Shown piece by piece: positions 13,593 through 35,200 of a stretch of DNA of 64,000 nucleotides. The translations under genes and the position numbers were made by a program. The notes beneath the pieces were generated by a model, which made no database searches, was not told where the DNA came from, and saw nothing but the letters and a program-made list of their open reading frames with translations. The stretch's first letter is position 1, and every line of letters begins with the position of its first letter. Source of the DNA: Cloeon dipterum (taxonomy: Eukaryota > Arthropoda > Insecta > Ephemeroptera > Baetidae); the NCBI RefSeq assembly GCF_949628265.1, contig NC_088789.1, forward strand, positions 31,055,883 through 31,119,882. Direction: 5' to 3'.

Positions 13593-16408
13593 CCTGAATC
13601 ATATATCTAAACAAATTTGTAAAATTAATATAACGCTTGGCTCTTCAAGCTAAATTATGTCAAAAGCTGCTTTTTGCACCTTGCCAGGGGATTTTCGGTC
13701 AAATATGTGTAGTGTTTTAATTATAATATGCTGCGTGCGAGGGAGAAACAAAAACAAGATACCTATCGGTTTTAAATCAAAATTTTCGTTTTTCTGGTAG
13801 GCAGGAACGCGGGTTATGTTTTTGTGAAAGATATTAACTAGGCTTTGTTCGCATTGTTCGTGGTTTTGGTGGGGTGCGGTCGCGAGTGGTGGTATCGCTG
13901 GGTTGTATCTAATTTTGGGGGTCAGCAACCCTAGGAGGGTGGCAACCGTAATGGAACTGCCATTCTGATGGGGTTTGGCAACCCTAGAAGTTGTTTCAAC
14001 CCAGAGTGCCTGGCAATCTTAGGGGTTGTGAAAACCTCACAGCCTCTTTAGCTTCGGCTACAGCGTCAACTCCCTCTAACTCAGGTCCATCTCGTGCATG
14101 CGGCCCTTGAAGAAACGGCCAAATTGTCCTCTCGTGACTCACGCGTGTAAGTGCGTGTCGGCGGGCACGTCGATCCGCTCGGCTGCACGAGCCATAAATT
14201 ACTGCGCGATTGAAAACACAGCTACAGCTTCGTTTGAGTTGAAATCCGGAAGTACGCATCGCGCACGGCATATTACGCTCGTTACGTCAAGATCAATTTT
14301 TTTCAAATAATATGTTCTTGAGAGAGGCTAAGCACTATTCTAATATTTACAAACTATTTTACCTCAATATACAATCCTATTCACTTGAAAAACCAATAAT
14401 CTTCGGCCGAAAGGAAACGTTCTCTTGCAGATATAAACAAGCAGTATCAGGTGGTCGGAGGGGAGAGTTAGAAAGGGAGGAGAAAAAGTAGAGCAGCCGT
14501 TATGGATTGGCACACGCTTTTGAGTTGCCGAAAATAAAATTAGAAAGCTTTCACCATTTCTCAAAATCAAATTTGAATATTTATTTTTAAAATTGAGGCT
14601 ACAATATGCCAAGTGCTAGACTAGAAAACACAGCTCCTTTTCTCACACTGCAGCTGCAAGTTCTGCATGACAGTGAAGCGCCGGCAGCGCCACAGCATAA
14701 TTTTGCGAATGAGAGCCAAATTGACTTAATTTAATTAAAGATATCGTTGATCATATGATAATTAGATTTTAAAATGTAACAAAAGCTACTGGCCATCGAT
14801 TGGTACCAAAATTAAACAATATGGATCAGTCAGGAAATAAAGATTGTTAAACGGAGAAATGACCAACCAAGAAATAGCCACTTGAGCTGTGTGTTGTAAA
14901 TTGTAAGAATGAACGAGTTAAGTAAGATTGCTGCTACAAGCATGTACCAACTTAAATTTATAATTAGCGTGCTATATCCCTGGGAGGTGCTGTGCTCTGA
15001 CGAGAAAGGTACATATTAAATTTGGTGAGACAAAACAGACGTCGATGGCGACTGGAAAAATTTCGTTGGCTCGGCTTTTTGGGCCTTTTAGGACTGTATA
15101 GTTGTAATTTTTCGATATAAATTTCTTAATCTGCCATCTTCCAATAAAAAGCCGTCTGGTAAATTTATTTATCTTAATTTAACAAGAATTTTGTTAGTGT
15201 TTGCCTGCGCTTGCGGGAATCCCGCAGGACCCACCAGCCCCTGATCACTCTTATGGTGCGTAAATGCGCCAGCTCAGCAGTTGCAGCTACACACAGGTGG
15301 CAGGTCGATAGCTTTTTCAGCCAATCAGAGGCCGTCTCGGAGCTTGTTGCCTGTTACGCCCACGAAAATCTCTGCACACGTCCCTCTTCGCCTCCTCCTG
15401 CAAGTGGGCGTAACAGGCAACAAACTCCGAGACGGCCTCTGATTGGCTGAAGAAGCAATCGACCTGCCACCTGTGTGTGGCTGCAGAACTTACAAACTGA
15501 CGCATTTACTTGCCATATTGAGTGACCAGGGGCTTGGACCCACCGGCTACCCCCCTAAAGCGATCTTAGGGGGGAGGGGCGTAACCGAGGGAGCAATATT
15601 ATGCATTAAGACTTGACGCTCTATCCACCCTGGACCCTGCAGTTCGTCTTGGAGGTTGGACGATGGAGCTCGAATTCTTTTCCCCGGCCTGTCTTTCTGC
15701 GCAGACTTGCTGCCACTCCTCGTCCTAAAATATTATTTCTTAGCCTCAGGGGTGCCGGCTGTCGCTCGTTGAAGGAAGGTTTAAGGGCACAGCGGGTTAG
15801 GCTCTGGATCATCCCAAGCAGAGATCCCTCGATGGTCGTGGCGGTGGCCAGTTTCTTGGACGAATAGACGCATCCTCCTCCGGCTAGAGGGAACTCCTCA
15901 CCGCCAAGGCAGAGGCCCTGTGTGATTCTACGGTGTCGTGAGCAAAAATTCGCTGGGTGACTTTTTCGAGCCACTTTGGGCGCTTGCAACAAAACCAGAT
16001 TTTGGGCCAGAATGTGGTCCCCAGAAAAATATTTGGCATCGATCAATGCGGCGTGAAAAGCTGAGCAAGATGCTCTTGACCGAAAGTGAGAGACGACGTG
16101 TTTGTTTCGCAAAAGCAGTTAATTCACGCGATGGCAGAGGCCTAGTTGGCGATCTCCAGTGCCGCTCTAGTCAGTGAGAGAGATTAAAAGTCTACAACTT
16201 TTGACTTAAATAAAATTAATAAACAACAAATAAATAAAATTAATTGTTTAACGGCGGTGGCAATTATTATATTAAAAAATAATTTTAAATGACGTCAAGA
16301 GTTATATTTATAGTTGAATTTTAATTAACGTTTTTGAGGATAATTCGAAGAAGGTAAATATGCAAGTTTTAATAAGAGAATAAGCTTGCGGAGTATGAAT
16401 ATATAATA
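13593..16408. repeat. Intergenic repeats between LRR genes B and C
   Basis: Bases 13855-14200 repeat the GGTGGCAACC and GTCGGCGGGCACGTCGATCCGCTCGGC segments seen upstream of gene A. Bases 14350-14680 hold a copy of the roughly 280 bp unit. Bases 14720-14850 match 19725-19850 (ACCAAAATTAA.CAATAT, GATCAGTCAGGAAATAAAG). A hairpin copy lies at 15261-15509. Bases 15610-16175 match 6900-7135 but carry about 330 extra bases in the middle (about 15750-16080). A 163-codon open frame on the minus strand covers this segment, but its composition is unlike a protein and I regard it as non-coding. Confidence 0.65.
15261..15509. repeat. Hairpin element (family H, copy 3)
   Basis: The left arm TAAATGCGCCAGCTCAGCAG and the right arm (ending CTGACGCATTTA) enclose mirrored CAGGTGGCAGGTCGATAGCT, CCAATCAGAGGCCGTCTCGG and CCTGTTACGCCCAC segments. 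The central loop differs from copies 1 and 2 (CTCTTCGCCTCCTCCTGC). It lies 3' of LRR gene C. Confidence 0.78.
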
Positions 16409-16424
16409 TTTATTCAAAACAATT

Positions 16425-18274
16425 TCAACGGCGCAGTTTGCCGAACGATTCAATTATCGGAACGAGAGTTTTATTGCTTACAATCATGGCCTTGATTTCG
16501 TTAATAAGATAATCTTGACCATTTTTCAAACGTTTTGCAACATCAACATAATCTTCGCAATCAAAGATAAATTTGATATCTTTCAATTTTGGAAGGAATG
16601 CTGATACCTTTTCTAAGAAAACAAGGAGTTCCTTAAAAGCATCAGTTGCCATGGCCATGTCACGACCCAAGCTGTATATCGTAAGCGTTTCCAATTCCTG
16701 AAGTATCAGACCTTCAGTCACCATCGTGTTCAATTCATCCAAATCCCCTTTGTAGTAGACAACAACACGTAAATAAAGTTTTTGTAAACGTGGTGATGAC
16801 AGCATCTTTGGAAGGAATTTTCCTCTTGGGTATCTGCAAATCAGTGTCATTATTTCACATTTCATTTTTAAATTTAACATTTATTTACCCAGAAACATCC
16901 ATATAGAGATCTTTTAGGTAAGGAAAATTCTTCAGTTGCATTGATGTTTCACCAAAATCAAGAAACCTCAGTTGAATTGATTCCAGATTTGGGCAAAGTT
17001 CCAAGATTTTCATATCAACATCTCCGTCACCCAAAGATGCTCCCAAACAGAGTGATTGCAGACCAGGGCCGTAGAAGCGCAAAATTTTGGTAAAAAGAGC
17101 GTCACAGCGACTACCATGCATGATAAGAGTCTTGATCTTGGAAAAGTTTGGCAATTGGAGCCGATCAGGTGTAATCTCCCAGGCATCGTAACAATTGATC
17201 TAAAACGACAGAAATTTATATGTTAGAGATAAAAAGTTGACGTTTGGGAGAACTGAACCTCAAGATAAGTGACATCCGGGTATATTTCGTGAATGTCCAT
17301 ATCGGGTGACTTGAACCAGTTTCTGCCACAGGAGAAATATTTCAGTTGTCCTGGATTTCCTTTCTCTGTCACTTGGAAGTGTCTATACTTGACGAGACGG
17401 AATGTAGTTTTCACCTCATCTTCTTCAAAGTCTTCGACGAAATTAAGAAGGGGAAACTGATGCAGTATTGCCCATTTTTCACCTTCAAAAGAAAATCCCA
17501 TGAGCAGTCTCACGTTTCCAAGGGATTGTCTAATCTCCTCATCTGTCACATCGAGACGGGACCCTGCAAATCCGCGAATACCTAAGATTTGTAATTGCGG
17601 CAAGTTTTTGCAGAGTTGAATGACATGACGGAACTCTATAAAGACCCGTTTCATCACTAATATTTTGAGATTCTTCAAGTCGGCCAGGTAGTCGAGCAAA
17701 GTCAAATGTTGGGCGTTCTGGCGATCAATGTTTCTGCTGTTGAACACAATATGCTCGATGTTTGGAGCTTGATACTTCACTATGTTGATGACCTTTAAAA
17801 TATTGTCAGTTAAATATGAAAAATTGATGGAAAACTTGTATTTCATTTACCCAAAGAACAACGTCCATTTCTTGACACTCAACAGTCGGACACTCTTCTG
17901 GGTAATAATGTGATTTACACTCTCGCAAAAAAGCATCCAAATCCAAGTATTTGGTGTTTGCAGTCAGCAGGCAGGGGATTTTCAGTAGATATTGAAACTT
18001 ATTAATTTCAGGATTCTTTTTCATCTCAACAAGTAATTGTTGAAATATTTTGTCACACATGTTGTATGCTATAAAAATGATTAGTTTACACAATTAACGT
18101 TCAAAATGTTAACTTACAAAAATATGTCGCGAGATGGTTCCTTAGATATAGGGCTGCGTGTGGGTCTATACTTCTGATGATTGTTCCAATAGCTATCTTC
18201 TCCAACTTTTGGACCCCGTACAATCTTGTGAGTCTCCTTTTGGTCATCTCGACCAAATCTTTTTGCTCCTCCAT
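16425..18274 (-). CDS. Leucine-rich-repeat protein, tandem copy C (542 aa)
   Basis: Exons (minus strand, 5' to 3') are 18274-18118, 18068-17851, 17792-17259, 17199-16889 and 16833-16425. Each lies 9035 bp from its copy A counterpart and has the same length. Exons 3-5 and introns 3-4 are almost base-identical to copy A; introns 3 and 4 show no difference that I could find. Exons 1-2 and intron 1 are visibly diverged (it starts MEEQKDLVEMTKRRL). This gradient points to recent gene conversion or a partial re-duplication. The domain content is as in copy A. An AATAAA lies 11 bp past the stop. The product is probably a protein-binding adaptor; no catalytic motif is visible. Confidence 0.85.
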
Positions 18275-20297
18275 CCTGAATCAAAGAACAAAATTTATTA
18301 TAACAAATGCTGATATAATTGAAAATTATCAAGTAGGTCAACGGTTGTTTATCCCCTGCGGATTGATTGACAAATTTATGGCAAAAGTTGAACAACTCTG
18401 CGGTGCGAGGAGGTGAAAAGAAAGCAGAATTCGGCCATGGTTCCTTTCCAGCCACAAAGTTGTTTCTATTGGTTTTTAATTAATTATTATACATTCCGGT
18501 AGGCAAATTTCACATGCAAGGAATTGAACTCAGAACTTCTAGCGTATGTTACATTTTTATGACCTCACTCCGTCAGAAAAGATCAATTTTGCCTGTTTAA
18601 AGGTCCCTTCCGCAATTTACATTCAAATATTTTAAATTCGTGAGAAGGGCCAATCATAATTCTGATATTTACAAACTATCTTACCTCAGTAAACTCTCCT
18701 TTTCACTCAAAATACCAAAATTCTTCAGATGAAAGAAAATACAACTTGTTCTTCCAGAAGTAAACAAGCAGTAACACGTCACGCGTCACGTGATCAAGTT
18801 AAGAAGAATTAAGGACACACTTCGTTTACGTGTTCTCCATGATTTTTTTCAGACCCGCCCAGAATTGGTCACGTGAGCTATATTCAGTAAAGGTGGTTCT
18901 GTGACGTCATTTGGAATAAAAATGTAAGCTGGCTGCTGTACCAGTACTGCCTCAAATTTTAAGGAAATCCCCGGGAGGTGCTGCGCTCTAACGAGAAAGA
19001 TTTTAACCAAAGTTGGTGCCTTACATTCAAAATTAAGAAATGAATGTGGTATATATGGAAATCTTGTTATTCCCAAGCATTTTCCTCAAGCCTCAAGTAT
19101 TCAAAAGATTTTACCTGTTTGAGTGACCTTTGCACGCCGAAAACCCAAATTGCAACGTTTTCTGGCAGGAAAAATGCAAGCCAAATCAAGCGATCAGTGA
19201 CAAGAGTGGGAAAGGGAGGAGAAATAGGAGGCTAGAGCTGTTATGAATTCGCGCATGCTATTGGGGAGCAAATCAGCAAAAAATAAATTGGAAAGCTTTC
19301 GCTATTTATCAAAATCAAATTTGAATGTTGATTTGTAAAATTGAGGCTCAAATATGCCAAGTACTTGACACAAAAACATAACTCCTTTCCCCACACTACA
19401 GCTGCCAGCTGTGCATCACAGTGCGCAAAAGCAACGTGTTTATAAACAAGTGGTAGCAGGTGATCTGAGAAGAGATTTGGAAAGGGAGGAGAAAAGGTCG
19501 AGTAGCTGTTATTAATTTGCGCATGCTTTAAAGATTCAAATCAGCAAAAAACAAAATCGATAAGCTTTCAGTATTTCTCAAAATCAAATTTGAATATTTA
19601 TTTGTAAAATCAAGGCTCCAACAAGCCAAGTACTCTACTAGAAAACACAGCTCCCTTCCTCACACTTCGATTGTGAGTTGTGCGGCACCTGAGCAAAATA
19701 CTGCGATTGCGAAACAAATCGACTTAATTTAATTTTAGATGTCGTTAACGACATGACATTTTGATTTTATAATGTGTCAATAATTACTGGCTATCGATTG
19801 ATACCAAAATTAAGCAATATCGATCAGTCAGGAAATAAAGATTGTTAAAGGAAATTTTCAGGTTAAATGCAACAATTTACAACCTGGCGGAACTTACCCA
19901 GTGAGACTTCTAGCTTTCAGTCTCTTTGCCTCATTGTGAAATTTGACAATAATAATATTAGTCCTAAAAAGGCGACTGGTTATCTCTCTGACGCACGATC
20001 CGAGAGGTCAAAGGTGGAGTTATGGCTCTGCTGATGACCCTGGGCATGTCAGCGGAGAGGCCAGTTCGCCTTTTGTTTTTATTTATATTGAATCGTCCTA
20101 ATTTTTCAATGATATTTTTTGATATCGGGATAGCAGGGGAAGCCATCGACACTTTTAGGTGATTTTCACTGTCCCTTCGCGCGTCAAAGGAGTCGGGAAA
20201 TCCTGCTGGGAAATCGCGGAAACGAGCGTGACGCGCGTTGAAATTCCCTCGTTCGTTAGTTCGTTTGCAGCGCAGAGTGAAACTGGCTCGGCGCGAA
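18275..20297. repeat. Repeat-rich spacer between the LRR cluster and the lectin gene
   Basis: Bases 18690-18790, 19190-19400 and 19400-19690 carry copies of the roughly 280 bp unit (CAAATCAGCAAAAAA, AAAATCAAATTTGAAT). Bases 18790-19020 resemble the window's first 230 bases. Bases 19725-19850 repeat 14720-14850. From about 19960 the sequence becomes unique and GC-richer, and is probably the promoter and 5' UTR of the gene starting at 20298. No clear TATA box was picked out. Confidence 0.6.
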
Positions 20298-23200
20298 ATG
20301 AGACCGCTCTGCTGGTTTGCCTTCTTCATTCTTATTCTGGTACGTAGGAAATTCTCACAAATATCGATATTTTTAATCGTTGTTACGTTTGATTGCTTAG
20401 AAATTGATTACTTTGTTTCATTGTAAAATTTTTGATAATATTTTTTAATCAGGTGGTAATTCTTGATGCTGGAAATGCGAAGCAGAGTACCAAACGCCGA
20501 AAGGGTGAATTAATATTTTATTAGAATTCAATTTTACTTCAATCCAATTAAAAAAGCGGGACGGAACGGCAACTCGAAGAATCAAAGGAGGAACCTGATC
20601 GTCAAGTGCTGCGGCTCGTCTTCCTGCTCCGATTCAGACCGAACAACTTTCAAATCTCAGGTATTTTCGAATTCGTCATGTTTTAAATATTATATGAGGT
20701 TGATTTGTGGTTGTGCAGAGCCTGGCGAACGTGACCGCCGGCAAGGTCAAAGCGACGACGAAAACGGCGGGGAAAACTCAAACTGAAACGCCTCCAGTCG
20801 AAGAAACAGGTTAGAGTTAAGTATTTTTGGGAGTGTGCAAACCGCAATTAATTTCCCATTGATGCTCCTTGGAAAATCCCGTACAAATGTGTGGGAAATC
20901 ACACTTTTAAATTTTGTTTGGGTTTGTGTAACGGGGAAAGCGGAAGTCATTAAAAGCCGATCAAATCTAGGCTACGGAAGTTGAGGAATTTGCTTGTTTG
21001 CATAAAAAATATTTAAATCTGCACAAATGTATTGATTTTTAAACAAATTTAGGAAATTTGACGTCTAAAATTTATTTATTTATTTATAGCATTGTCTGAG
21101 GAGCCGTCAACCCCGGCTTTGGAGGAAACAGTAAGCCCGATTACCTCCCCTGCAGTCGATTCCTCATCAACGGAATTGGTTTCATCAACCACAACGGAAG
21201 AGACGACCACCCCGACGACGACAACGACGCCGGCGACCACGACCGAGGAGACGACCACCACCACCGAACAAATTAAATTGACGGGCGTAAAATGTCGCAT
21301 TTTAATCGAAAATAAGGGCTGATTAAATTTTTGGCAGGAATATTGCGTTTTCCGCGGATGCTCCTACCACCCGTGTCCGCTCGACGTGAGTTACAAATAA
21401 AAATAATGATTTTTATTTAAAATTTTTAATTAATTTCAGTCTGTTCTACAAAAGAAAATGTTAAGCGGTGAAAGTAAGTTTACAATAAATTTAAAAAATA
21501 TATATCTAAAATAATTGCTTGTAGACTCGACCGATGGAGCATTTTACTCCCGCTGCAGCAAGAAATATTTCGTTAGCAGCACAAAGGCAAATGAATTTTA
21601 ATCAATTTAAAAACAAAAATCATGAATTAAAAATTCAGAAAACGCGTTACGAGGCAGCAGTGGCGTGCTGCAAATATAACATGCGGCTCCTCAGCATCGA
21701 AACTGACGAAGAGCAAATGTGTCTGACGTCCCTGAACAACGGTTATATATTTTTATTGAAATTTTCGAACCGAATTAAAGTCAAGTGTCTGATTGTTTTT
21801 AATGATAAAAAATATTAATATGTTTTCAGGAAAATTAGGGTGAAATCTGGGAAAATTGAGCTTATTTCGGGTTCTAATGAAGCTAGAATTTTATATTTGG
21901 TGTCAAAAGATGCCTATTCAGACGACAAACAATTTCAAAATATGAACTGCACTTTTTGATTTTTACAAATTGGAGTTATTTTCTAGTTTTAAATTACATT
22001 TTGAATGTCTTATAAACGACTTGTTCAGTATTTTTCTAAGTATGCGATAAAATGTTTCCCCAAGTGTGTGAAACATGCGTATAAATTTTCAGGATGGTGA
22101 ATCTTTCAGTTTTTGAGAAATAAAGGGTAAAAAGGGCCTTTTAGAGTTCACAGGAAAAATCTAAATTGCATGATCGGTTGATTATTAATGCTGGAGATCA
22201 CTCCCGAGGACAGATAAGACCATTAGAGCTTATTAGAAATCGAACCCTGGCGTCAGGGTAGCCTTCAAGCGATCAATTTAATCAAATTCCGAAAAGTAGA
22301 CACTTTAACGACGCCTGACGGGCTTTGTAATGTCTTGATTTGCCAGATCTGCACACACGGCCAAGTCGAGACCTTTCAGAATATGTACAATTTGACCCTT
22401 TGGAAACCATCAGGGTTTAACCTGAGTACCCTGATGGCATCCAAAAGGTCAAAGTTGACAAATTCCTAAATTCCTTGACTTTGAGATCCAATAAAACCAA
22501 TTTATAAATCTTTTTCAGACGTTTTGAAGGAGTCAGGTACAACATTCTGGACGTCAGGGTTGACAGACCCTTTCTGCCAGAGCGTGTGGTGTCCGAACGT
22601 GAACAACTACTCGGTTGACGTTGACGTGGCCATCAACCGGCTGGAGACGACGGCGACGAAAATAACAGACAAGTGCAACACCTACGTCCTCACCGCCGGC
22701 GACGACACCAAGAGCGGACTCAGGTTTTCCGACTGCAACGCTCCCAACAATTTCATTTGCGAGGCATTTTATTTTAATTATTAAAATAAGGGCGTGAACG
22801 AAACAATTCAAAATTGCAGTCTTTCGAGCCGTCATGCCCTCAGGAATGTGTCAAAGATGTAGGTGATAGTTTAATTTATAATTTAAAAGAGAGTATTTAA
22901 TTATTTTACCCCTTTAGACCTCACTTTTCAACAGCAAGGGAAATTTGATTGGTTTGTTTCCTAGTTAAAATTTAATTCTTATAAAAATATATGATTTTAT
23001 TAGACCCTTTGAGTTACGGAAATTGGATCAATAGCTGCAACTTTACGTTTTTATTCGGTACAACTCTGGTAAAGAATTTTCTACAGATTTAAAAAAAAAT
23101 CATACTGCGAGTATTTCCCCTCCAATATCTCAGGGTAACTGGCAAGAAAACTGGGACCAGTGCTGCCAGCTGGGGATGACCCCCTTCCTCCTGGACGAGC

Positions 23201-24786
23201 CGCAGGAGTTCCAGTGCTTCGACACCCTCCTGAAGGGTATATACGAACCTCCCCTCATTTATTTTAAATAAAACAATTGACATCACCCTCCCCTTACTCA
23301 GGGTGGCAGTACAACCTGAACTACTGGACGTCTGGGTCGCGCGTTGACTCGCCGGCAAACCCCAAGTGGTGCTCGCTGAAGAAGTTTGTCAACCTGAGCA
23401 GCATTGCCCTGGAGGGGCAGAGCAACCTGAGCTACGTGGACAGGGACTGCGTCGGGCTGCAGATTTCGAAGACGACCAATAACGTCACTAGCTACTTCAA
23501 CAGCTCGCTCGGAATGCGAAATTGCACCGCGAGGCAGATGTTCGCCTGCAGGGTAACTCCCCAGTTTGTGTTCGAAGCCGCCAACAGATGGCGCCACCGT
23601 ATAAATTTTATTTTAATGCATTTCAGCTGCGATTTCATTCTCAATTTTATCACTGTGTAATCTCCCGTAATATGCTTTCTCTTGACGTGCTGAAAACCAA
23701 AACCAGTCCAGCCATTTGCCGTAGAAACGTTGGAAAAGATTTTATATTTAAAAATATAATTGATGAATTTTTTTAATTATATTTTTCCTAAAATTTGGGT
23801 GTTTTCAGGGTCCACCAACGCCCAAGCCGTGCTTCAGACCGTTCTGCCCAAGAAGCTGTCCCAAAAACGTGAATTTGGGGTTGAAATTTTATTTAAAACT
23901 TAACTTTCCTCTCACAGGCGTCCCTGTTTGAAGGAGGAGGAAAGCTGAAATGTACTTTTTCGATATCATATTTGTTCCTTTCAAGGAAATAAATTAATAA
24001 TAAACGACGCAGATGCAACGAGTTACGGCCGCTGGACGTCTCGGTGCAAGAAATACTTCATGTTCACAGACAAAAACTCCAACTCGACGGTTTGTTTTAA
24101 AGACTGCGTGAAACGTGAAAAAATTATCGGATCGGACGGATTTAAAAAATAATTATTGTCACCTATTTTTATTTCCTGCTCAAACTGATATATTTAAATT
24201 CAATCAGATAAGAATTTTAATTTCATTTTAAAGGAAATTTTCAATTAAAGACAAAATATCCAAAAATAATTTTTTTTCTAAATTTTAAAATTTGAATTTA
24301 TCAAAAAAGGAGCTAAAAAGCGCTCTGAAAATTTCAAAATTGTTCGTTCCCACCTTACTTGATTTACTTTTAAAAGGTTTTTAATAAAAAAAAACTTCAT
24401 CAAAGAAATAAATTAAATAAAAAACACAGCTTTCGTGGTCTGAGGCGAAGTGCAAGTGCGAGCAGATCGGGATGCGGCTGGTGTCTGTGCAAACCCTGAG
24501 CCAGGTCGACTGCCTGGACAACGTGACCCGCGGGGGCATGGCCGACCTTCAGGGCTCGTTCTGGACCTCGGGCGCCTACCTCGATTGCGACGACCAGTTC
24601 GGGTGGTGCGCCTTCGACGACCAGTTCTTCAACGCCAGCACCGTGCGCTGGGGCAGCGCGCAGCCGCCCTCGGACAAGGCCAACACCTGCGTCAGGGTGG
24701 CCCTGACCGCCTCGGGCTCCCTCTCCTCCCTCCAGGCCGTTAATTGCGATACACGGTCGGACTACATCTGCGAGGTCGAGTCTTGA
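20298..24786 (+). CDS. Secreted mosaic protein with mucin-like stretch and three C-type-lectin-like domains
   Basis: Exons are 20298-20339, 20453-20504, 20557-20660, 20719-20809, 21090-21286, 21338-21385, 21440-21473, 21525-21586, 21639-21741, 22519-22763, 22820-22858, 22918-22951, 23004-23068, 23134-23236, 23302-23552, 23809-23868, 23918-23951, 24013-24089 and 24430-24786. The total is 1998 bp (665 aa). It starts with a signal peptide (MRPLCWFAFFILIL), then a basic/Cys segment, then a Thr-rich stretch (TTTEETTTPTTTT) likely to be O-glycosylated. Three CTLDs follow, with WTSG, paired Cys and terminal ICE/ACR landmarks. The Ca2+-binding EPN/QPD and WND motifs are absent, so sugar binding is doubtful. 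Each CTLD is built from a Cys linker exon, an invariant 34 bp exon, a 62-77 bp exon and a 103 bp exon. Two junctions (21586 and 22763) need GC donors. The final exon either stops at 24786 or splices at 24774 to the OBP exons downstream. A start 20 codons upstream at 20238 is possible but lacks a leader. Confidence 0.8.
22140..22470. repeat. Dispersed intronic repeat (copy 1)
   Basis: This stretch of the large lectin-gene intron matches 61180-61490 in inverse orientation. Shared strings include CCCTGGCGTCAGGGTAG, GCCTGACGGGCT, AGATCTGCACAC and TTTCAGAAT..TTTGACCCTTTGGAA. The rest of intron 21742-22518 holds nothing I recognise. Confidence 0.7.
23567..23760. repeat. Half copy of MITE family M in a lectin intron
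   Basis: GTTCGAAGCCGCCAACAGAT begins a sequence that matches only the left half of the family M palindromes (CTTGACGTGCTGAAAACCAAAACC, CGTAGAAACGTTGGAAA). The right half is missing. It begins within about 20 bases of the 5' splice site at 23553, so the insertion has not disturbed the donor. Confidence 0.7.
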
Positions 24787-24970
24787 AAATTTGTTAATAT
24801 TGAAAATGCTGGAAAATTCTTGGAATTTTCGGAATTTAATTCTCTTCAAAAGTTTTTAATGATATTTTCCTGGTAGGTTAGTTTTTAACAGAGATAAAAA
24901 TCGCAATTTATTAATGTTTTTATTTTAGAAACAAACAAACTTTCACATTGGACATATATTATTTTCGCAG

Positions 24971-26974
24971 ATGGACGATACAAACGGAGACAGTTTGACA
25001 AAAGCAAAGAGCGAAATGTGTCAGAAAGCATTTAACGTGACCGACTGTGAGATTTTCTATAATTAAAAAAAATTATTTTAATAAATAAAAATATTCCAGT
25101 GGAGCTTGGAAACGTTTTCATGTCGACAACATTTTCAGCCAGCCTTAAAGTGACGCTTTTTATAACCAAAAAATTAAATTAATTTTAAAATTTCCTTTCA
25201 GTGCTATTTCAAGTGCATGGGCGACAGTTTGGGTTTGGTCAAAAACGGAGTTCCAAATGCGGCAAACGTGCTGAAAATGGTCGAGGCCAACTCGAAGAAC
25301 ACCGACGCCCTTCAGGAGAGCTTTGACATTTTCGACGTTTGCAAAAACAAAAAATGTACGTATTATCTTTTTAAATCATAATTATTTTGTATTTTTCCCC
25401 CAGCTGGTGGTTGTGAGGCAATCGCCCAGGCTTTCCAGTGCACGGCTGAAAAATCTCCGAGCGTCGTCTCGGGAATGGTGGAGGAGTCGGTCAAGGACAT
25501 TTCGGTACCTAATTATTCTCGAATTTCCGGTTAAAAATAATTTTTCTTTCAGTCAGGGGCGCCAGTCTCGTGCACTAATGTAGACTGCAACGTCAACCCG
25601 ACTTGCAACATTAATGTAAGATTTTAATTTGTGCTGGGAAATTAATATTTGTGTGTTTCTTGATGCAGACTGCTGACGTGACAAACCTGGCCAATGGACA
25701 GAGTAGATTTTAATTTAATATATAAATCCGTTGATTTTAATTTGAAATGTGTGCAGACGCGGCAGGAGACAACTACGGCAGCATTTATGGCTACCCGCTC
25801 ACTGCCTGTGGCAAAAGATACTACGTCTCCACAGTTTTTGTAAAGAAAATACCAAAAGACTGACAATTTTTAATAGTTTTCTGCTTGATATTTAAAATTA
25901 TTTAGATTCCATTGGATTCCTGAGGGTCGAAATAGGTGGGATCAGTAATTAATTCGATAGAAAACGGTTTTGTGACGTGCATAAGCAGAAAACGAACGTT
26001 GGTTTGAATCTTTTAGTCGCTACTGCGCAAGTCTCACCCCTCTGACGTCACAGCCATGCTTGGTGCTTGGCTTTGGCAGCTGATTGTGAGTGAGAGAGCA
26101 GGCGACGGCAGAGACATCTGCTACCCAGTAAGCACAGTCACGCAGCTGGAGCAGTCACGTGACTCAATCCCGCCATCTCATTGGCCAAGAGCACGTACGC
26201 ACTGTTAGGAGGGAGTATGGAAAGGAGTTAGCGAAGAGATTCTTGGCCAATGGGATGCCGGGATTGAGTCACGTGACTTTTCTGCTGGGTATGAGCAGAT
26301 GTCTCTGCCGTCGCCTACTCTCTCATTCAGCCGCCAAAGCCAAGCACCAAGCATGGCTGTGACGTCAGAGGGGAGACGCTTAAACAGTATTCAAGCGTTT
26401 TGCGCGCCAAAGGAACGTGCGATTTGCTTCGAGCCTCTGCTCTGACCTCAGGAAATCATTTTCGACCGGAAAAATCACTCACCCCACCTATTTCGACCCT
26501 CAGGAATCGATTGGAATATATAAATTTAGCGTCTAAAAGGTAAAAATCTGATTTTTAGCTGGATTACGCTGGGGCCGCGACCAAGTGCTGCACGCTGAAC
26601 ATGACGCTCGCCTTTTTCTACACAATTGACCAATTTAATTGCTTCATCCAGGCTGACAATGGTGGTCTATCCAACCCCTAAAAACGAAATAAAATATCAG
26701 GCAAGAATTTTTCATTTTCGTAGCCCTGCAGAAGACGAAGGCGGGCAAGTTGTTCTTCTTAGGCGGCAACAACGAGGGTTGCGTCTCGTTTTTCGGCTGG
26801 TGCCCGTCGAAGCGTGCGATCCCGGCCTTGCAGTTCGCCGCTTCGTCCAACACGACGGCGCTGACCAACCGCTGCCTCGCGCTCACCGCCAACAACACCA
26901 TGTTCAGCGGAAAGGTCACCGAGGTCAGGTGCACCACCGACACCTACCAGTTCGTCTGCACCGAACGCGAATAG
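24971..26974 (+). CDS. Odorant-binding-protein domain spliced to a C-type-lectin-like domain
   Basis: Exons are 24971-25046, 25100-25149, 25202-25355, 25404-25504, 25553-25615, 25669-25702, 25757-25839, 26559-26661 and 26724-26974 (stop TAG). They total 915 bp (304 aa), are all GT-AG, and phases match throughout. Exons 1-4 encode about 125 helical residues with six cysteines spaced C-25-C-3-C-41-C-7-C-8-C (MCQKAF, CYFKC, FDVC, GGCEAIAQAFQC). This is the classic insect PBP/GOBP fold signature for carrying small hydrophobic ligands. Exons 5-9 repeat the CTLD module of the preceding gene (linker 63, then 34, 83, 103 and 251 bp) and end TYQFVCTERE. No signal peptide precedes the first exon, which starts straight after an acceptor. 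It is therefore either the 3' part of the three-CTLD gene, joined from 24774, or a gene whose leader exon I could not find. The CTLD lacks Ca2+-site motifs. Confidence 0.75.
25917..26506. repeat. 590 bp palindromic MITE in the OBP-CTLD intron
   Basis: Perfect 20 bp terminal inverted repeats (TTCCTGAGGGTCGAAATAGG and its complement) bound an internal palindrome. GGTGCTTGGCTTTGGC, GAGACATCTGCT.CCCAG, AGTCACGTGACTCAATCCCG and CATTGGCCAAGA all reappear inverted. The centre is near 26210. The flanks share an ATTGGA string, a possible decayed target-site duplication. It holds no coding sequence. Confidence 0.82.
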
Positions 26975-26975
26975 C

Positions 26976-27020
26976 AATAAATGTAACACAATAAATCAGT
27001 GAAATTTTCGGCTGAATAAA
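26976..27020 (+). terminator. Polyadenylation signals of the OBP-CTLD gene
   Basis: AATAAA occurs at 26976-26981, 26990-26995 and 27015-27020, just after the TAG stop at 26974. By contrast, no AATAAA lies between the putative stop at 24786 and the OBP exon at 24971. Confidence 0.7.
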
Positions 27021-27439
27021 GATATATGCGAGCAGAATATAGGATGAAATCATTTTGTCAGGAATGGGAAGAGAAAAACTCAAGGCTTTCAAACTTCAAA
27101 GGGTTAAATTGCTCATGGAAAAAATGGCTATAATTAAAATATAGAAACATTGCGCAGATAAAAAATAATAAATAAATTTTGCAAAATAATCGCTTGCTTC
27201 GGGAATTAATTTTTTAAACAGAAAAGAAGTGGATTTTATATTAAGTTATAAAAACTTCCGATGGAATGCTATAGTTTTCTGATCTTACACGATTTTCAGC
27301 CTGATAAAAATAACTTCAAACCTTAAAAATTAATTAAAACAATTTTCTCATGCACTTCGAGCCATAGGGCATCGATCGGAAGATAACCAATTCTGATTAA
27401 ATACTCTTTTAGTCCTTCAATAGAAGGACTTGTCTTCCT

Positions 27440-27581
27440 CCTTGCTCTCATATCAAGGTGACTTGTTTTCTTATCTAAAGATTAAAACTTGATTGCGGCA
27501 GTCAGGCAGGTAGACAGACGCCAATCAACTCGTTGATAAGCTTGCTTTGTCGCCAAAAAGAGATAAAAACACTCAAATCGA
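27440..27581 (+). promoter_or_regulatory. Putative promoter of the RCC1-BTB gene with GATA sites
   Basis: Within 120 bp of the start codon there are three GATA-type motifs: TTATCT at 27471, TGATAAG at 27534 and AGATAAA at 27561. A CCAAT string lies at 27521. The 27022-27440 spacer is otherwise AT-rich with no other feature seen. A regulatory role is inferred from motif density only. Confidence 0.35.
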
Positions 27582-30021
27582 ATGCTTTCCTTGCAAACAG
27601 CAGTGCTGAAACGAACTTTATTTGGTGCGGAGGCTGCTGCTGCCGCGATGTCAGACAACTTGGATAAGTGGAAAATATTTCAGGAGCTGAGCGACGACCT
27701 GAAGCGGAATATCAGGCTTGCAGTCGCATTTAGTAAGCTTTTAGATTAATTATTATGTTTCACAAAGCTTGAACTGGCCTTTTCTGATAAGAAAATTTAT
27801 GTTTTTATGTTGAATGGCTGTTGTTGGTGTTCATTCACTATTAGTTAGTTTCCACTGCCCGCTTATTCTACAAATTGAAGGCTTTGATAATAATTCCTCA
27901 GAATTACAAACATCCTTTGTCTCATCTTTAACTATAATTAACATTTAAAGATGATAGCGCAATTTACGTGACGAAAGATGATGACGTTTTCGGCTTTGGC
28001 AAAAACGAAGAAGGATTTCTTGGCACTGGCGACAGGGAACCACGCACAGAGCACACGAAAATTGAACAATTGTGCGGACAAAATATCGAAGGTGAAGCTT
28101 AAGGAAATTTATTGATGCGACTCCCAAAAATATACATTATTATATAATTTTTTAGGGTTGCAATTCGCACACTATACGTTTTTCGCGATTTCTGCTTCCG
28201 GCTCAGTTTTTGCCTGGGGATTCAATAATCATGGCCAGCTTGGACTGGGTACGAAACAAGAAACCTTGATCCCAACCAAAATTGAAGGAATTCTGGCAAC
28301 AAAGAGAGTTGTGCAAATTGCCTGCAGCACTTACCATACTCTGGCATTAACTTCAGATAGAGAGGTTTAAATAAAATACATGTCATTCAAATTAATTCAC
28401 AATTTCTAATTAGGTCTTTTCCTTTGGTCGTAACGATAGCGGGCAGTTGGGACTGGGACACAAAAAAAGCCAAAACCTTCCAATCGAATTGGACTTTCCT
28501 TCGGCTGGGAGAAATGTGACATCCGTCGCTTGTCTATATTTATCATCTGTTGCACTCCTAGACTCTGGAGAGGTGAAAATCATTTCATATTACGGGTTCA
28601 TGATTGTATATTCAATTATTTCTTCATACAAATATAACATTGAAATTTCTTTTACCTCTGGTTAATTATTGGATTTTCAATTTAAAGGTATTGGCTTGGG
28701 GAAAAAATGCCGATGGCATTTTGGGCCATAGTGCAGACGACGTGAGGGAGCAAACAATTCCTCGCAAAGTGCCCGGCTTGGAAGGCATCACGATTAAAAG
28801 AATTGTTTGTGGCCAAAACCACGCACTGGCTTTGTCTAGCGATGGAAAAATCTATTCTTGGGGAGGGAATGAATTTTGCCAGCTTGGAAATGGAACCACC
28901 GAAAATTCACATGAACCAACTTTGATAGCTGGAATTTATGGCAGGTAAGATGAACATTATAAAAGAATATTATACGATAAAAATTGTGTTCCGGTAGGGT
29001 AAGAGACCTAGCTGCTAATTACTGTTGCAGAGTTAATGCGGCAGTCACAGAAACTGATGAAGTATACATTTGGGGTGAATTAAACGGTTCGTCTATGATA
29101 TAATTAAAAACAATAATCATCACATATTAAATTATTAGAAAGTAAAATTTTGGGCCCGACAAAAACCTCATTCGCATCTCTGGATGAAGTTTTTGCGAAA
29201 CTCCCAACTCCGGCCTTGACATTCCGACCGTTGCGTCCAAAACTTGATGAGCCATTAGAAGAACTGAACACTGCTAACGAAAGTCCGGAATGGCTACAGA
29301 ATTCTTTTGATGACGCCGTAAGGAATAATAACAATAATAAACAATTGTTTATATCACTGATTAAAGGATACTGCTGACGTTGTTTTCAATGTCGAGGGAA
29401 AGAAAATCCACGCGCACAAAACAATTCTGATAATGCGATGCAATTTCTTCAGGGCGATGTTTCTAGGCGGTTGGAAAGAGAGCAACCAAAGGTAACTTAA
29501 CTTGTGAGTAATTATAAATCAAAACTTATGTTTAAAAGGGAGCAAATTATCGAGCATCACACCTACGATGTATTTTACGCCTTCTTGAGATTCTTCTACA
29601 CCAACGAGGTTGATCTGCAGCCAGATTTGGCTTTTGGTAAAGAATTCGAATTGCTGTTGATTCTGTTTTTGAATTTTGAATTTACAAAGAGCTTTTCGCC
29701 TTGGCCCACTTCTATCAAATTGCTGATCTGCAAAAGGAGTGCTTGAAAATTATCAAAAGAGGCGTAACCGTGGAAAATGCAGCGTCGATTTACGAGAAAG
29801 CCATACAACTTGCTGCTGAGGTTCCTTATTAATCCTTTTTTAAAATAAAAATTTTGTTTTGGACCCTCATTTCTTTTCAGGAGCTTAAAGAGTTCGTTTT
29901 CAACTTCTGTATGAAGAATACAAATGCTGTCGTGAAGAGCGAAGCCTTCAAGCTTTTGAAGGACGATGTCGTGAGAGATTTCGTCCTTCGTGCTGCTCAG
30001 CATGAAGCGTTTAAAAAATGA
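27582..30021 (+). CDS. RCC1-repeat and BTB domain protein (RCBTB-type), 559 aa
   Basis: Exons are 27582-27732, 27951-28091, 28156-28364, 28414-28572, 28688-28944, 28998-29086, 29139-29317, 29367-29491, 29539-29636, 29690-29820 and 29881-30021. They total 1680 bp, all GT-AG, and every phase fits. Residues of about 50-340 form RCC1-like beta-propeller blades with the VFGFGKNEEGFLGTG, VFAWGFNNHGQLGLG, VFSFGRNDSGQLGLG and IYSWGGNEFCQLGNG signatures. Residues of about 395-500 are a BTB/POZ domain (ADVVFNVEGKKIHAHK, FFRAMFLGGWKES, FLRFFYTNEVDL). A short BACK-like tail follows. RCBTB proteins are thought to act as Cullin-3 adaptors or chromatin/cytoskeletal regulators; which applies here is unknown. 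A second in-frame ATG lies at residue 23. AATAAA is at 30151-30156. The length is close to vertebrate RCBTB1/2 (about 530-550 aa). Confidence 0.9.
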
Positions 30022-32082
30022 TAGGCGACTATTTTCTTTGTTTAGAAAAAGCAGAATATGTTCCGTAATTGTTTTTTAAATTGTAATCAATTCCACGCAT
30101 TAGGATGTGTGATATACCGTCGGACCAAATATTTATTGAACTTGAAATTAAATAAAGATGAGTATTTATCTTGCTGGAATGTTTGGCACACGTTCTCGTC
30201 ATTAATCTACATTTTTAGCTTAATTATTAAATAATTCGTTGAATTGTATGGTGAGGTATGATTAACGTTTTAATCTGTGCGAGGCACAATAAGATTGCAA
30301 TAAGCTATAAAGCCTGTCGGTATGATAATGAGATAAGGACTCTTGGACTGACGCAGTATCGGATAGCGATTGACTCTTTCTGGCTTATCAATTCTTTCTA
30401 TCGGCAACGGCAATAATACCAGAATAAATATTTAAATCTTTTTAAAGATTAAATTCAGTTTAAATAGGGTGGCGCTGGGAGAGGTTAAATAAAAGGTAGG
30501 TGCCGAAGGTGCAGTTTTCTCGCTCATCGGTAGGGGCCCGCCACCGCCTCCCCCACTACGAGCAGCGAGACTCTAACTGGGAGAATGCTGCAGCTGCAGG
30601 AGCAAGGTGGCGTGAAAAGAGAGTGCCGCGCACGCCAAGTTTCACGTCGGCCGAGCAGCAGAGCAACAAAATGCTAATTTTATCCGCGCGCGCGGTTATC
30701 TCGCCGCGAGAACCTCGACTCTCGGTCTTTTCCCGCCACGCGCAACACACTTTTGCGTAGGTTACTTCTCTTTTTGGGGCTGAGAGCCGGCCACAAATTT
30801 CTCATTTTATTAAACAAAAATCAGAGTGAATTCAGCCCCACGCATTTTTCAGTTTTCGGAAGCTCATACGCATTTCCTTTTTGCAAATCAACGATATTTT
30901 TCTCGAAAAAGAGCGGAAGTCCACTCCGCTGATTGATGCTGACTGCGAGCAAAGTGATTCGCCGCCGAGAGATGTCCTTCCTTCTTCCTTCAGTGCTGTG
31001 TTCCCTCTGGGCGGTTTATTCTTTCCGCCGAGCACGCTTCTCGCGCTTGTTGCAGAGCTCAAAGATATTTAATTAAAATTTGCTCTTTTCCCCGCTGATG
31101 CATGGCAACATGGCAATGCCTCCGCCTGCAACCAGCCGCGAGCACTTTTATGATCTCTATAAATTTATTGCTTCGTTTATTTAGTCAAATTTCAAGAAAT
31201 TCAGTTGCTCTTTTACCTAATTAAATTGAAAAAATATATCTGCACGGTTTGCCGATTCACGAGTAAATAACAGAATCCCTTCGATCTTTAAATTAAAATC
31301 GTTAATTACCCTTAGGAGTTCATCCAATTTAAAATCGTTTGCATTAAAATTATCGATACAAATTTTGTCAAATTTAATTTTTATTCAACAAATTATTAGA
31401 GATTTTTACCACTTTAGTCCGTGAAGTAGATGTGGAAGCGCCGCGCTGATGTATGGATTCGCGTCGGCCATTTATGTATTTATTGAGACGATTTAAAGCA
31501 AGAAGAAATTGGTAACTCTGGTTATTTATCGTGAAGAGGATGAAGCGACCGAGATTTGAGCCAGAGTCCGCCACGGCATCCCACTGATAACACTTTTACC
31601 TTGTTTTCTTTCGCTCTTTTGGTGCTCGTGTCGCTGATCACGCAGTCGACCAATTACTTTATTTCTCTTCTTATTTGCGAAACAGACTGCGTTGATAATT
31701 GACGGTGCATGAGCTAGCGGTAAATTAAATTCATGGAAAATTCATCATAATATCAATATAATCTGAATTAATTTAAAAAAAAAAATTATTGAGCAGTCGG
31801 CGTTTGATAGAAAACGTAAGACATTGTTATTTCCTTCCAGTACTAATTTTCTGATTTATTGAATTATCAGCTTCATTACCTACCAAGTGTAGTTGCAAAA
31901 ACAGAAGAGAGGATTTTCACAAGACGATAAAGACGGGAGACCAGGTCACGGACGAAAGGTCACGGATTTGACCTCTTTCTCTTCTCCCAAATGTGTGATA
32001 AGCACCAAGCAGAGGCGGCTAAATTAATTTCGTGTTTGTGGGATGAATATTAAAAGCCGAGCATTTAAAATTTTTATAACCA
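30022..32082. other. Non-coding spacer, left edge of the segmental duplication
   Basis: Past the AATAAA at 30151 the DNA is unique to about 30740. From there it matches downstream DNA in pieces: 30740-30985 with 39235-39500, 31010-31170 with 40760-40900, 31530-31660 with both 42390-42520 and 43240-43390, and 31830-32082 with 43860-44115. Two open frames in opposite frames around 30930 and 39440 share LIDADCEQSDSPP. This reflects a 40 bp identical block and not a supported exon. Confidence 0.6.
31943..31974. promoter_or_regulatory. Cluster of three nuclear-receptor half-sites (copy 1)
   Basis: AGGTCA at 31943-31948 and at 31957-31962, then the inverted TGACCT at 31969-31974. This is a direct pair plus an everted/inverted partner, as bound by insect nuclear receptors. 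It lies about 110 bp past the protease polyadenylation signal, within a stretch of about 100 bp that is nearly unchanged in unit 2. Confidence 0.35.
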
Positions 32083-32200
32083 TTTATTATATAAAAACCC
32101 AATTGCAAAAATACTTTGATAAGAGATTATGCTGTCCATCTACCATTTTTCTACTGAATTACTACTGTCCTTTTGCTAAACTTTTTTTTTAAACCCACAT

Positions 32201-35200
32201 TTAATTCCGGAATGAAATGTCCGGCGTGTTTTTCACGATCCAGTCCATGTAACTTGCGACGTCGGCGAACAAGGAATATTGATTTGGATGACACAACGAA
32301 GTATTTTTGCCCTCAAACTCCACTATTTTCGACATTCCAAAGCTGACAATGCCCCTGATGAACCAACGGCCGTCTTTTTCAATGGAGAGGCTTCCTCCGC
32401 TGTCTCCGTTGCAGGTGGTCGTTCCTGAATTAATTAATAAAATTGAGGAAACGGTAATTATGAAATTAGGAGATTCTAACCGTTCGTGTAGCCGGCGCAA
32501 AAGTTGTCTCCCGGCCGCAAATATTTCGCAAAGAAATTTCTTTTCGACAAGTAGCATTCTTTGTGAGTTAAAATCGGCAGTCGAACCTCTTGCAGATCAT
32601 CTGTGCGCGTGTGGTTGTCGACGAGCCCAAACCCAACCGCCTTCACGAGAAAGAAAAACAAATATTAGAATCTATTTTTCGAATTCACGCACATCCGATA
32701 CCATAGCTTTGGTTCCAGCGACGCGAGCCAAGTTTGAGTCAGAGTCGTCGTTCCACAAGCAAATCGGTCGGACATTGTTGGTTATTTTTACTTTTTTCTT
32801 CAAAATCACAAGTCCGACGTCACTAATGAATTCCGCAGAGTCATATTTCGGGTGCGTGATCATACTGCTGAGCTAAAATGTTTGCATATTATTATCGATT
32901 AGAATACTGTTCGTGCAATGTGAAACCTTTCTTCTCTGAACACCAGGGGCTCTTCTTTTTCTTTTATCATACAACCCAAGAGAAACTCTGAAATCCTCTG
33001 CTTTCGATCCATAAATACAATGTGCCGCTAAAAGTAACATTTTAAATCGAAAAAGTCATGAAATTAATCATTTCTTCGCTTCAATACCAGTCAAAACTAC
33101 CGTCGGTGAAATCAATGTCCCGCCGCAGGCTCCTCCAGTCATCAAATTCTCAATGTAAACGTGCCAAGGATGATCGCCTGTCTGAGAAATGTTTCCACGG
33201 AAAATTTGACCAGCGATCGATGGTATTTCTGTGGAAGAATCGTCCTTTTCTAGTTTCGTTCCTGTTGATGTCGGTTTCCTTCCGCAGTTTCCGAAACTGA
33301 GGTTGTCTGGAGCGTTGAATCCTTTTTTAAAGATACATAAAACTGTGAGCGTATTTGTGTGAATTTACCTTTAGGTTGTTTTATTTCCGGAATTGGGCGT
33401 AGAGCAGAAATGTCTTTTGCGTGCATTGCGATCTGGTCAATGTATAACAATATATCAACGTAATATCGGTGGTTCCAATGAAATTTTAAGCCTCTCAAGA
33501 AATACCGGCCTTTGTAGAAATTGATCACATACCAAAACTCTGTGTGGCATTAAATGACAATCATTGAATTTGAATGAGATGTAATTTATCTATAAATCTT
33601 ACGCCAAAAGGTTTCCTCAACACACAGGATATTCTGGATGGGAATTTTTTCTGTTTCCAATGTACTCAATTCATCACTGTTTAGAACTCTTCTACAGTTG
33701 CTTTGGCTCGTCATGTTTGCTGTAATAATTGGCAAAAAGGAAGTAAAATCGTGTCACTGGCATTAACAAATACATTTGAATCCGACTAAAATTTATCGCA
33801 TATGAAAGAGTTTCAAACTGACTGAAATCGTAAAAACTATTGCCCCAACAGTCTGTAATCGTTCACACTTTAAAATTTATTTAAATTAATATAATTTTCG
33901 ATCATTCATATAGATTTCGTTACCTTTCCACGCTCGCTGGAAATTTTCTTATGTTCCTGACAAAATCTCTGATTGTTTTGTATTTATTTTTTATTACAAT
34001 TCTTCAGAGTAACACAAAATTGAATTTGAAATAGAAAACAAAGGAGACAACAAAAATAAATTTACATTATTTGACCAGTTGCATAAACCATTAGCGTTTG
34101 AAGCAAACAGATGGCGCAACTATAAACTCTCTGAAAATTTGTTTTTAATGCACTTTCGATTCAATTTCAGACTCAATCTAGCTACCGTGCATTCTTCATT
34201 AATTATGCTCTCTTTTGACGTTCTGAAAACCAAAATCGGTTCAGCCAATCGCCGTAGAATCATGAGAAATAAAAAATCTTTTCAACGTTTCTACGGTGAA
34301 TGGCTGGACTGATTTTGGTTTTCAGAACGTCAAAAGAGGGCAAAATTAATGAAGAATGCACGGTAGCTATAGATTGAGTCTGAAATCGCAGCGGAAGAGC
34401 TTTAAAACTAAATTTTTAGGAAAGCCTATATAGTTGCGCCATCTGTTAGCGGCTTCGAACACTAATGCTTTACGCAACTGGTCAATTTCAATGAAACTCA
34501 CAAAGGCATCAATATTTTGAAAATGCAACATTTTATGAAAATAAAAAAATCAGCACTCTTTCATTTATAAATATGCAATAAATAATTGTGGCATAAAGAT
34601 TAACACCAGTTTCTTTTCGGATTTTTGCAAAATTTATATAATTTAATATTTAAATATTATTAAATGTTTGTTCTTAGTGGATTTCAATTAATATGGGATA
34701 TTGAAACGGTCAAAATATATTTGAATGACGAGTTCAGAAAAGCAGAAAAACTGTAAAATTTGATTCAAGTCAATTTGTAACGTTTTGAAGCTATAAAATG
34801 TACATGTACTGTTTCATTCTAGCGCCGATAATTTTAAATTAAATTATTGTCACAAATAGGTTTATAATATTATATTTAACAAACTTACCTGGGATAGGTG
34901 GATCAGTCTATAAAAATAGATTTAAAATAAGTTTAAATCACTACAGAAATTAGTTTGAAAATACGAACTTGATATGGTGACCATTGAAAGTAGGGTGATT
35001 CTCTTTTAAGTTGCGAGTCCATTGCGTTGTCACGGTTAAACAAACAAAAGGGAATTACCACACTCGGCATTTTCTCGGTTATCATCATCGTGAATTTACA
35101 ATAACCATACGGATCTAAGGCAATTTTAATTACATCCAGTACCTTAAATAATTGAAAAAGTCATTGTATAAACAAGGTGATGCTGAAAATGGTAAAATAA

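Follow-up and report, generated by a model that had tools for sequence, protein, structure and literature searches.

An odorant-binding-protein module among C-type-lectin-like domains in a large protein family of the mayfly Cloeon dipterum

Odorant-binding proteins (OBPs) are usually regarded as small free carriers. A 64,000-nucleotide stretch of Cloeon dipterum DNA, here called the window, raises the question of whether an OBP can also be one part of a much larger secreted protein. Specifically, an earlier note on the window proposed that an OBP encoded by four exons is joined to a C-type-lectin-like domain (CTLD) encoded by five. Here, we consider whether the joining is real, to what protein it belongs, how often it recurs in the genome, and what such a protein could do.

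Architecture of the window gene and identity of its domains

All nine exons between 24971 and 26974 are bounded by GT-AG splice sites and form a single open frame ending in TAG at 26974; the phases agree at each junction, as the earlier note had stated. The translated exons also confirm the OBP signature that it described, with cysteines spaced 25-3-41-7-8. They form only the 3′-terminal third of a gene model with 28 exons, which encodes 966 amino acids (Table 1). The domain order, of which we are highly confident, is signal peptide, Cys-rich stub, Thr/Ser-rich linker, CTLD1, CTLD2, CTLD3, classic six-Cys OBP, and CTLD4. Thus, the proposed joining of an OBP to a CTLD module stands, but as a description of the protein it is incomplete: the OBP sits between CTLD3 and CTLD4, in a member of a large family.

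Table 1. Features of the OBP–CTLD gene, in window positions
Feature	Position	Strand	Basis
Whole gene model	20298..26974	+	28 exons, 966 aa, no internal stops
Signal peptide, exons 1-2 (MRPLCWFAFFILIL-VVILDAGNA..)	20298..20504	+	Hydrophobic N-terminus, judged by eye
Short Cys-rich stub (VKCCGSSSC)	20557..20660	+	CCG-x-x-x-C pattern, read from translation
Thr/Ser-rich mucin-like linker, exons 4-5	20719..21286	+	44% S+T across residues 66-161
CTLD1 and its Cys-prefix exon, 5 exons	21338..22763	+	Translated model, inverted copy, paralogue alignment
CTLD2 and its Cys-prefix exon, 5 exons	22820..23552	+	Translated model, inverted copy, paralogue alignment
CTLD3 and its Cys-prefix exon, 4 exons	23809..24774	+	Pfam Lectin_C above cut-off
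Phase-0 intron, 196 bp, CTLD3 to OBP	24775..24970	+	Donor gtcgag
OBP domain, 4 exons, residues 663-789	24971..25504	+	Symmetric 0-0 exon module, PF01395
OBP exons	24971-25046, 25100-25149, 25202-25355, 25404-25504	+	Frame and splice boundaries
CTLD4 and its Cys-prefix exon, 5 exons, stop 26974	25553..26974	+	hhalign to CTLD3 profile
CTLD exons of the earlier note	25553-25615, 25669-25702, 25757-25839, 26559-26661, 26724-26974	+	Frame and splice boundaries
Palindromic MITE-like insertion in CTLD4 intron	25896..26527	+	Nested inverted repeats, outer arms 83 nt, 77% complementary

Four close copies of the gene were available for comparison. One is an inverted copy, C4:31183523-31176907, which lies 94 kb from the window gene and yields the same 28-exon, 966-aa model without stops. 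The others are three paralogues on contig C1 (L031 A and L031 B, in tandem, and L032), all of which carry CTLD1-CTLD2-CTLD3-OBP-CTLD4; the L031 A and B models were curated from CTLD1 on, and the aligner's exons 5′ of CTLD1 are untrustworthy for A. The window model is least secure in its first exons. Introns are GT-AG in 25 of 27 cases and GC-AG in two, and exon 3 has a weak acceptor (20557); splicing may therefore differ toward the 5′ end. The two GC-AG introns (21587-21638 and 22764-22819) are shared with the inverted copy; at the corresponding sites, the three C1 paralogues read GT. The two-exon arrangement of the signal peptide occurs also in L032 (MRKILHITIIIAVSL-NLLHAPEG), and the CCG-x-x-x-C pattern of the stub is found again in L031 B, L032, L048, and L046. 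The window protein contains 17 N-glycosylation sequons.

Two alternatives inside the model were rejected. For the exon preceding the CTLD3 core, an acceptor at 23986 yields a TGA; the acceptor at 24013 removes it and matches the paralogue length. An OBP-like in-frame string at about 24090-24150 was considered as a second OBP, but the model places it within an intron, and the 23-aa piece, a short query, gave no Pfam hit. Judged by eye from open reading frames, the neighbouring genes are an RCC1-repeat/BTB-like protein at 27640-30020 (+) and a trypsin-like serine protease at 32200-33360 (−).

Where the gene begins bears directly on whether the fusion exists. The exons of the earlier note begin at 24971, and the ATG there is rejected as a start codon: an AG acceptor lies immediately 5′ of it, the aligned residue is Ala in three paralogues, visual inspection of the 196 bp 5′ of the OBP exon revealed no signal-peptide exon, and the last CTLD3 exon upstream (24430-24774) closes at a phase-0 donor. 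The same phase-0 donor, following (Y/F)ICE, is present in the inverted copy (gtcaag), in L031 A and B (gtaaat), and in L032 (gtaaca), making five copies with the window gene, and in all four of these copies the OBP exon opens at a phase-0 acceptor. These observations have to be set against a simpler possibility, namely that a free OBP gene lies among CTLD genes and that the fusion is an artefact of modelling. That reading gains from an in-frame TGA just inside the 196-bp intron, which gives CTLD3 an apparent stop (VES*), and from the ATG that opens the OBP exon. The Ala of the paralogues, the unseen signal peptide, and the shared donor all argue against it, and the OBP exons themselves end without a stop, at a donor that matches CTLD4.

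The identity of the OBP module is supported by several profiles. Against Pfam PF01395, the OBP exons score 35.2 bits and the full protein 31.9 bits, with a cut-off of 22; a score below threshold, which the earlier note had named as a ground for refuting the fusion, was not seen. In each of the three full or near-full proteins, the Pfam OBP and C-type lectin profiles both pass their cut-offs. The six Cys columns are invariant in all 12 aligned OBP domains (those of the window gene, L031 A, L031 B, L032, and eight of the nine further loci modelled below; the inverted copy and L029 are excluded). Members of the L048-L052/L020 group have a longer C1-C2 spacing (30-32), with an additional, seventh Cys in L020. 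Finally, a profile built from four family OBP domains matches 11 PDB sequences (E ≤ 0.01), of which nine carry OBP or pheromone-binding-protein names and two only Anopheles gene ids. Its top solved relatives are "Odorant binding protein 4" and ASP5/ASP1 of the honeybee. Given these matches, a pocket-forming OBP fold is likely in the window family.

For the lectin-like modules, Pfam Lectin_C (PF00059) reaches 34.4 bits in the window protein (cut-off 22.6), with two stretches at E 0.1, and does not match CTLD4. When CTLD4 is compared with the family CTLD3 profile by hhalign, however, the probability is 97.5 (E 6e-12), and the OBP profile, used as a negative control against the same target, gives 0.1. 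The five-exon CTLD module of the earlier note is thereby upheld. Its implied function as a lectin fares less well: EPN, QPD, and WND motifs are missing from the window protein and, from CTLD1 on, from its four close copies. Sugar binding by these CTLDs is therefore unlikely, and those of the window group are probably protein-binding or structural modules rather than Ca-dependent lectins. EPN is kept in CTLD3 of L046 and L047.

The CTLD3–OBP junction across the genome

The assembly comprises 190 Mb in 10 contigs, five of which measure 43.2, 37.5, 37.1, 36.4, and 33.2 Mb. Nine further loci, picked non-randomly from search hits and with rough CTLD4 ends in several cases, were modelled. CTLD3 and the first OBP exon lie within one exon in seven of the nine and are spliced together in the other two (L029 and L030). 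In a cluster at C3:13.77 Mb, for example, a single open frame runs straight from CTLD3 into the first OBP exon, uninterrupted by any intron. With a spliced aligner, CTLD4-type sequence follows the OBP at all nine loci. The OBP profile is above its cut-off in nine of nine, and both domains are in eight, L029 showing the OBP only; the L046 and L047 models use a GC donor for the exon after the CTLD3–OBP junction. A tenth locus, L051, has the same junction as judged from its open reading frames only. Five more loci were drawn from other CTLD clusters, and by eye an OBP-type C5-C6 exon stands between CTLDs in four of them, the fifth, L057, being ambiguous. The seven loci that have no intron between CTLD3 and OBP contradict the idea of separate genes, which we regard as highly improbable. 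The OBP–CTLD fusion of the earlier note is thus strongly supported, and by open-frame junctions at loci other than its own.

Roughly a hundred loci carry the CTLD3–OBP junction. A 93-residue query spanning it gave 426 candidates, of which 150 were scored. The junction is crossed at no fewer than 104 loci, in that 104 of the 150 scored hits extend at least as far as query residue 91, and so beyond the first OBP Cys (query residue 86), and all 104 are free of stops. They are distributed over C1 (43), C2 (5), C3 (7), C4 (39), and C5 (10). With another query, for which 150 of 623 candidates were scored, at least 78 hits reach residue 150 of 157; the hit lists of the two queries overlap. Both counts are lower bounds for the single-exon form, and spliced copies such as that of the window lie outside the 104.

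Did these loci arise from one fusion or from many? Across 12 loci, CTLD3 and OBP distance matrices are correlated (r 0.90; none of 20,000 permutations is as high). The two domains were thus duplicated jointly, which is what a single fusion event would predict. We infer one insertion of an OBP between CTLD modules, and subsequent growth by tandem and segmental duplication.

Other searches returned little. Pfam PBP_GOBP, run against the genome exon by exon, gave one hit, and a search of 5.8 billion proteins returned 716 candidates, none at E ≤ 0.01. At L035 (C3:3621000-3630000), OBP-like exons occur and no CTLD was noticed in the one-strand open reading frames of 9 kb; this is probably a free-standing OBP gene. 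A query made from the free-standing-looking OBP at C3:3625495 found its own two exons and two further weak places.

Divergence among copies and possible function

The inverted copy belongs to a large inverted duplication that pairs window 16262-33776 with C4:31163896-31187532 (L043, L033, L042), at 93-97% identity over window 16262-31015 and 86% over 31014-33776. It includes the OBP–CTLD gene and its RCC1-like neighbour and may be a segmental duplication or an uncollapsed haplotype. Between the two genes, 804 codons hold 19 synonymous and 10 replacement changes (dN/dS 0.14). The corresponding ratio for L032 and L031 B is 0.18 overall and 0.10 for the OBP, at saturated dS values of 1.7 and 2.5. 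By this measure, protein-level constraint over the whole protein is evident. The OBP alone differs between window and inverted copy by no synonymous and four replacement changes, which are too few to read and give no sign of constraint. Compared with L032 and with L031 B, the window protein is 28-45% identical per domain.

What might such a protein do? Our best functional guess is still the tethered hydrophobic-ligand carrier that the earlier note suggested. The signal peptide, the Cys stub, and the mucin-like linker are most simply read as belonging to a secreted, matrix-held ligand carrier. In such a protein, the OBP module would fold into the usual helical pocket and bind small hydrophobic ligands. 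The CTLDs, the Cys stub, and the O-glycan-rich linker would hold it in the extracellular matrix or a mucus layer. An immobilised carrier of this kind would concentrate ligands at a surface, with no diffusing away. That the architecture acts as a held ligand-binding protein, whatever its role, seems to us reasonably probable from the predicted domains. More tentatively, the carrier may work at an aquatic surface, with gills or nymphal sensilla the most likely place.

An immune role would use the same held, ligand-binding mechanism for another purpose: the CTLDs would settle on microbial surfaces, the OBP pocket would take up microbial lipids, and the many copies would form a diversifying repertoire. 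Secreted proteins with several CTLDs are common in insect immunity, and the large tandem clusters speak for such a role, as does one tandem pair. Specifically, L031 A and B (C1:8281500-8291400, with L040) are 54% identical in the OBP, at dN/dS 0.68, and 97% and 93% identical in CTLD1 and CTLD3. Such a pattern points to gene conversion in the scaffold on either side of an OBP that has diverged. We rejected a faster-evolving OBP as a general rule, given that only this pair and, mildly, L046 and L047 show it. In most pairs of other loci, the OBP has diverged about as much as CTLD3, which gives no general indication of diversifying selection acting on the pocket. The low OBP ratio between L032 and L031 B, saturated as its dS is, and the missing canonical sugar-binding motifs of the window group also count against immune pattern recognition, which we think unlikely.

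The mucin-like linker, the Cys stub, and the 17 sequons would also suit a structural gel, coat, or adhesive secretion, such as an egg coat, cuticular mucus, or gut lining, in which the OBP would be a disulfide module and any ligand incidental. The OBP profile match and the retention of all six cysteines in every one of the 12 aligned domains weigh somewhat against a purely structural product, though they fit structure and binding alike. We consider this reading quite unlikely and prefer the tethered ligand carrier.

Relation to known proteins and significance

The module resembles classic insect OBPs (PF01395, PBP_GOBP) in its six-Cys spacing, its Pfam score, and its PDB profile matches. Classic OBPs, however, are free secreted carriers of 13-17 kDa, whereas at the protein level this one departs from the classic type, being built into the interior of a 966-aa protein between CTLD3 and CTLD4, with no signal peptide of its own seen. 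Secreted insect proteins with several CTLDs (Lectin_C, PF00059), of which immulectin-like proteins are one kind, share the tandem CTLDs and the signal peptide; unlike them, the window protein adds an OBP module and a mucin-like linker and has no EPN, QPD, or WND. D7 salivary proteins and dimer OBPs likewise hold an OBP domain inside a longer protein, and a long-form D7 matches at E 0.36. To our knowledge, these proteins combine OBP with OBP and have no lectin domain.

The published OBP set of C. dipterum is similar in its very large number of OBPs and its compact genome (180 Mb there, 190 Mb here). The main text of that study gives 191 OBP genes in a 180-Mb assembly and expression of 82 of 167 OBP genes in gills, and "lectin" does not occur in it (PMC7250882). 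The word is also absent from the main texts of two other Cloeon papers (PMC11597413 and PMC11491810). For another mayfly, Parafronurus youi, the main text reports 10 OBPs and likewise has no occurrence of "lectin" (PMC13205551). Among the open-access PMC papers that we consulted, we found no description of an OBP–lectin fusion, one of them treating OBPs and lectins apart from each other, and in the open PMC literature nothing on lectins in Cloeon. The picture that results is of an OBP built into a mosaic protein with four CTLDs, in a very large family and not as a single oddity.

We speculate, with some reserve, that the baetid mayfly OBP "expansion" (191 genes, PMC7250882) is for the most part a set of 100 to 200 secreted mucin/lectin/OBP proteins whose ligand pockets are kept at the aquatic surface of the animal. 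If so, these mayflies would possess an immobilised system for chemosensing or recognition that concentrates ligands beforehand, in contrast to the soluble OBP carriers of other insects, and the presence of only 10 OBPs in P. youi (PMC13205551) would be easier to explain. In such species, many of the proteins taken for odour carriers may instead belong to large proteins of the lectin type. If this is confirmed, OBP counts obtained by domain search in such genomes need to be re-read, and in-situ and expression data on mayfly gill "OBPs" may concern lectin–OBP proteins. The role of OBPs in an aquatic insect would then become directly testable through a defined class of proteins.
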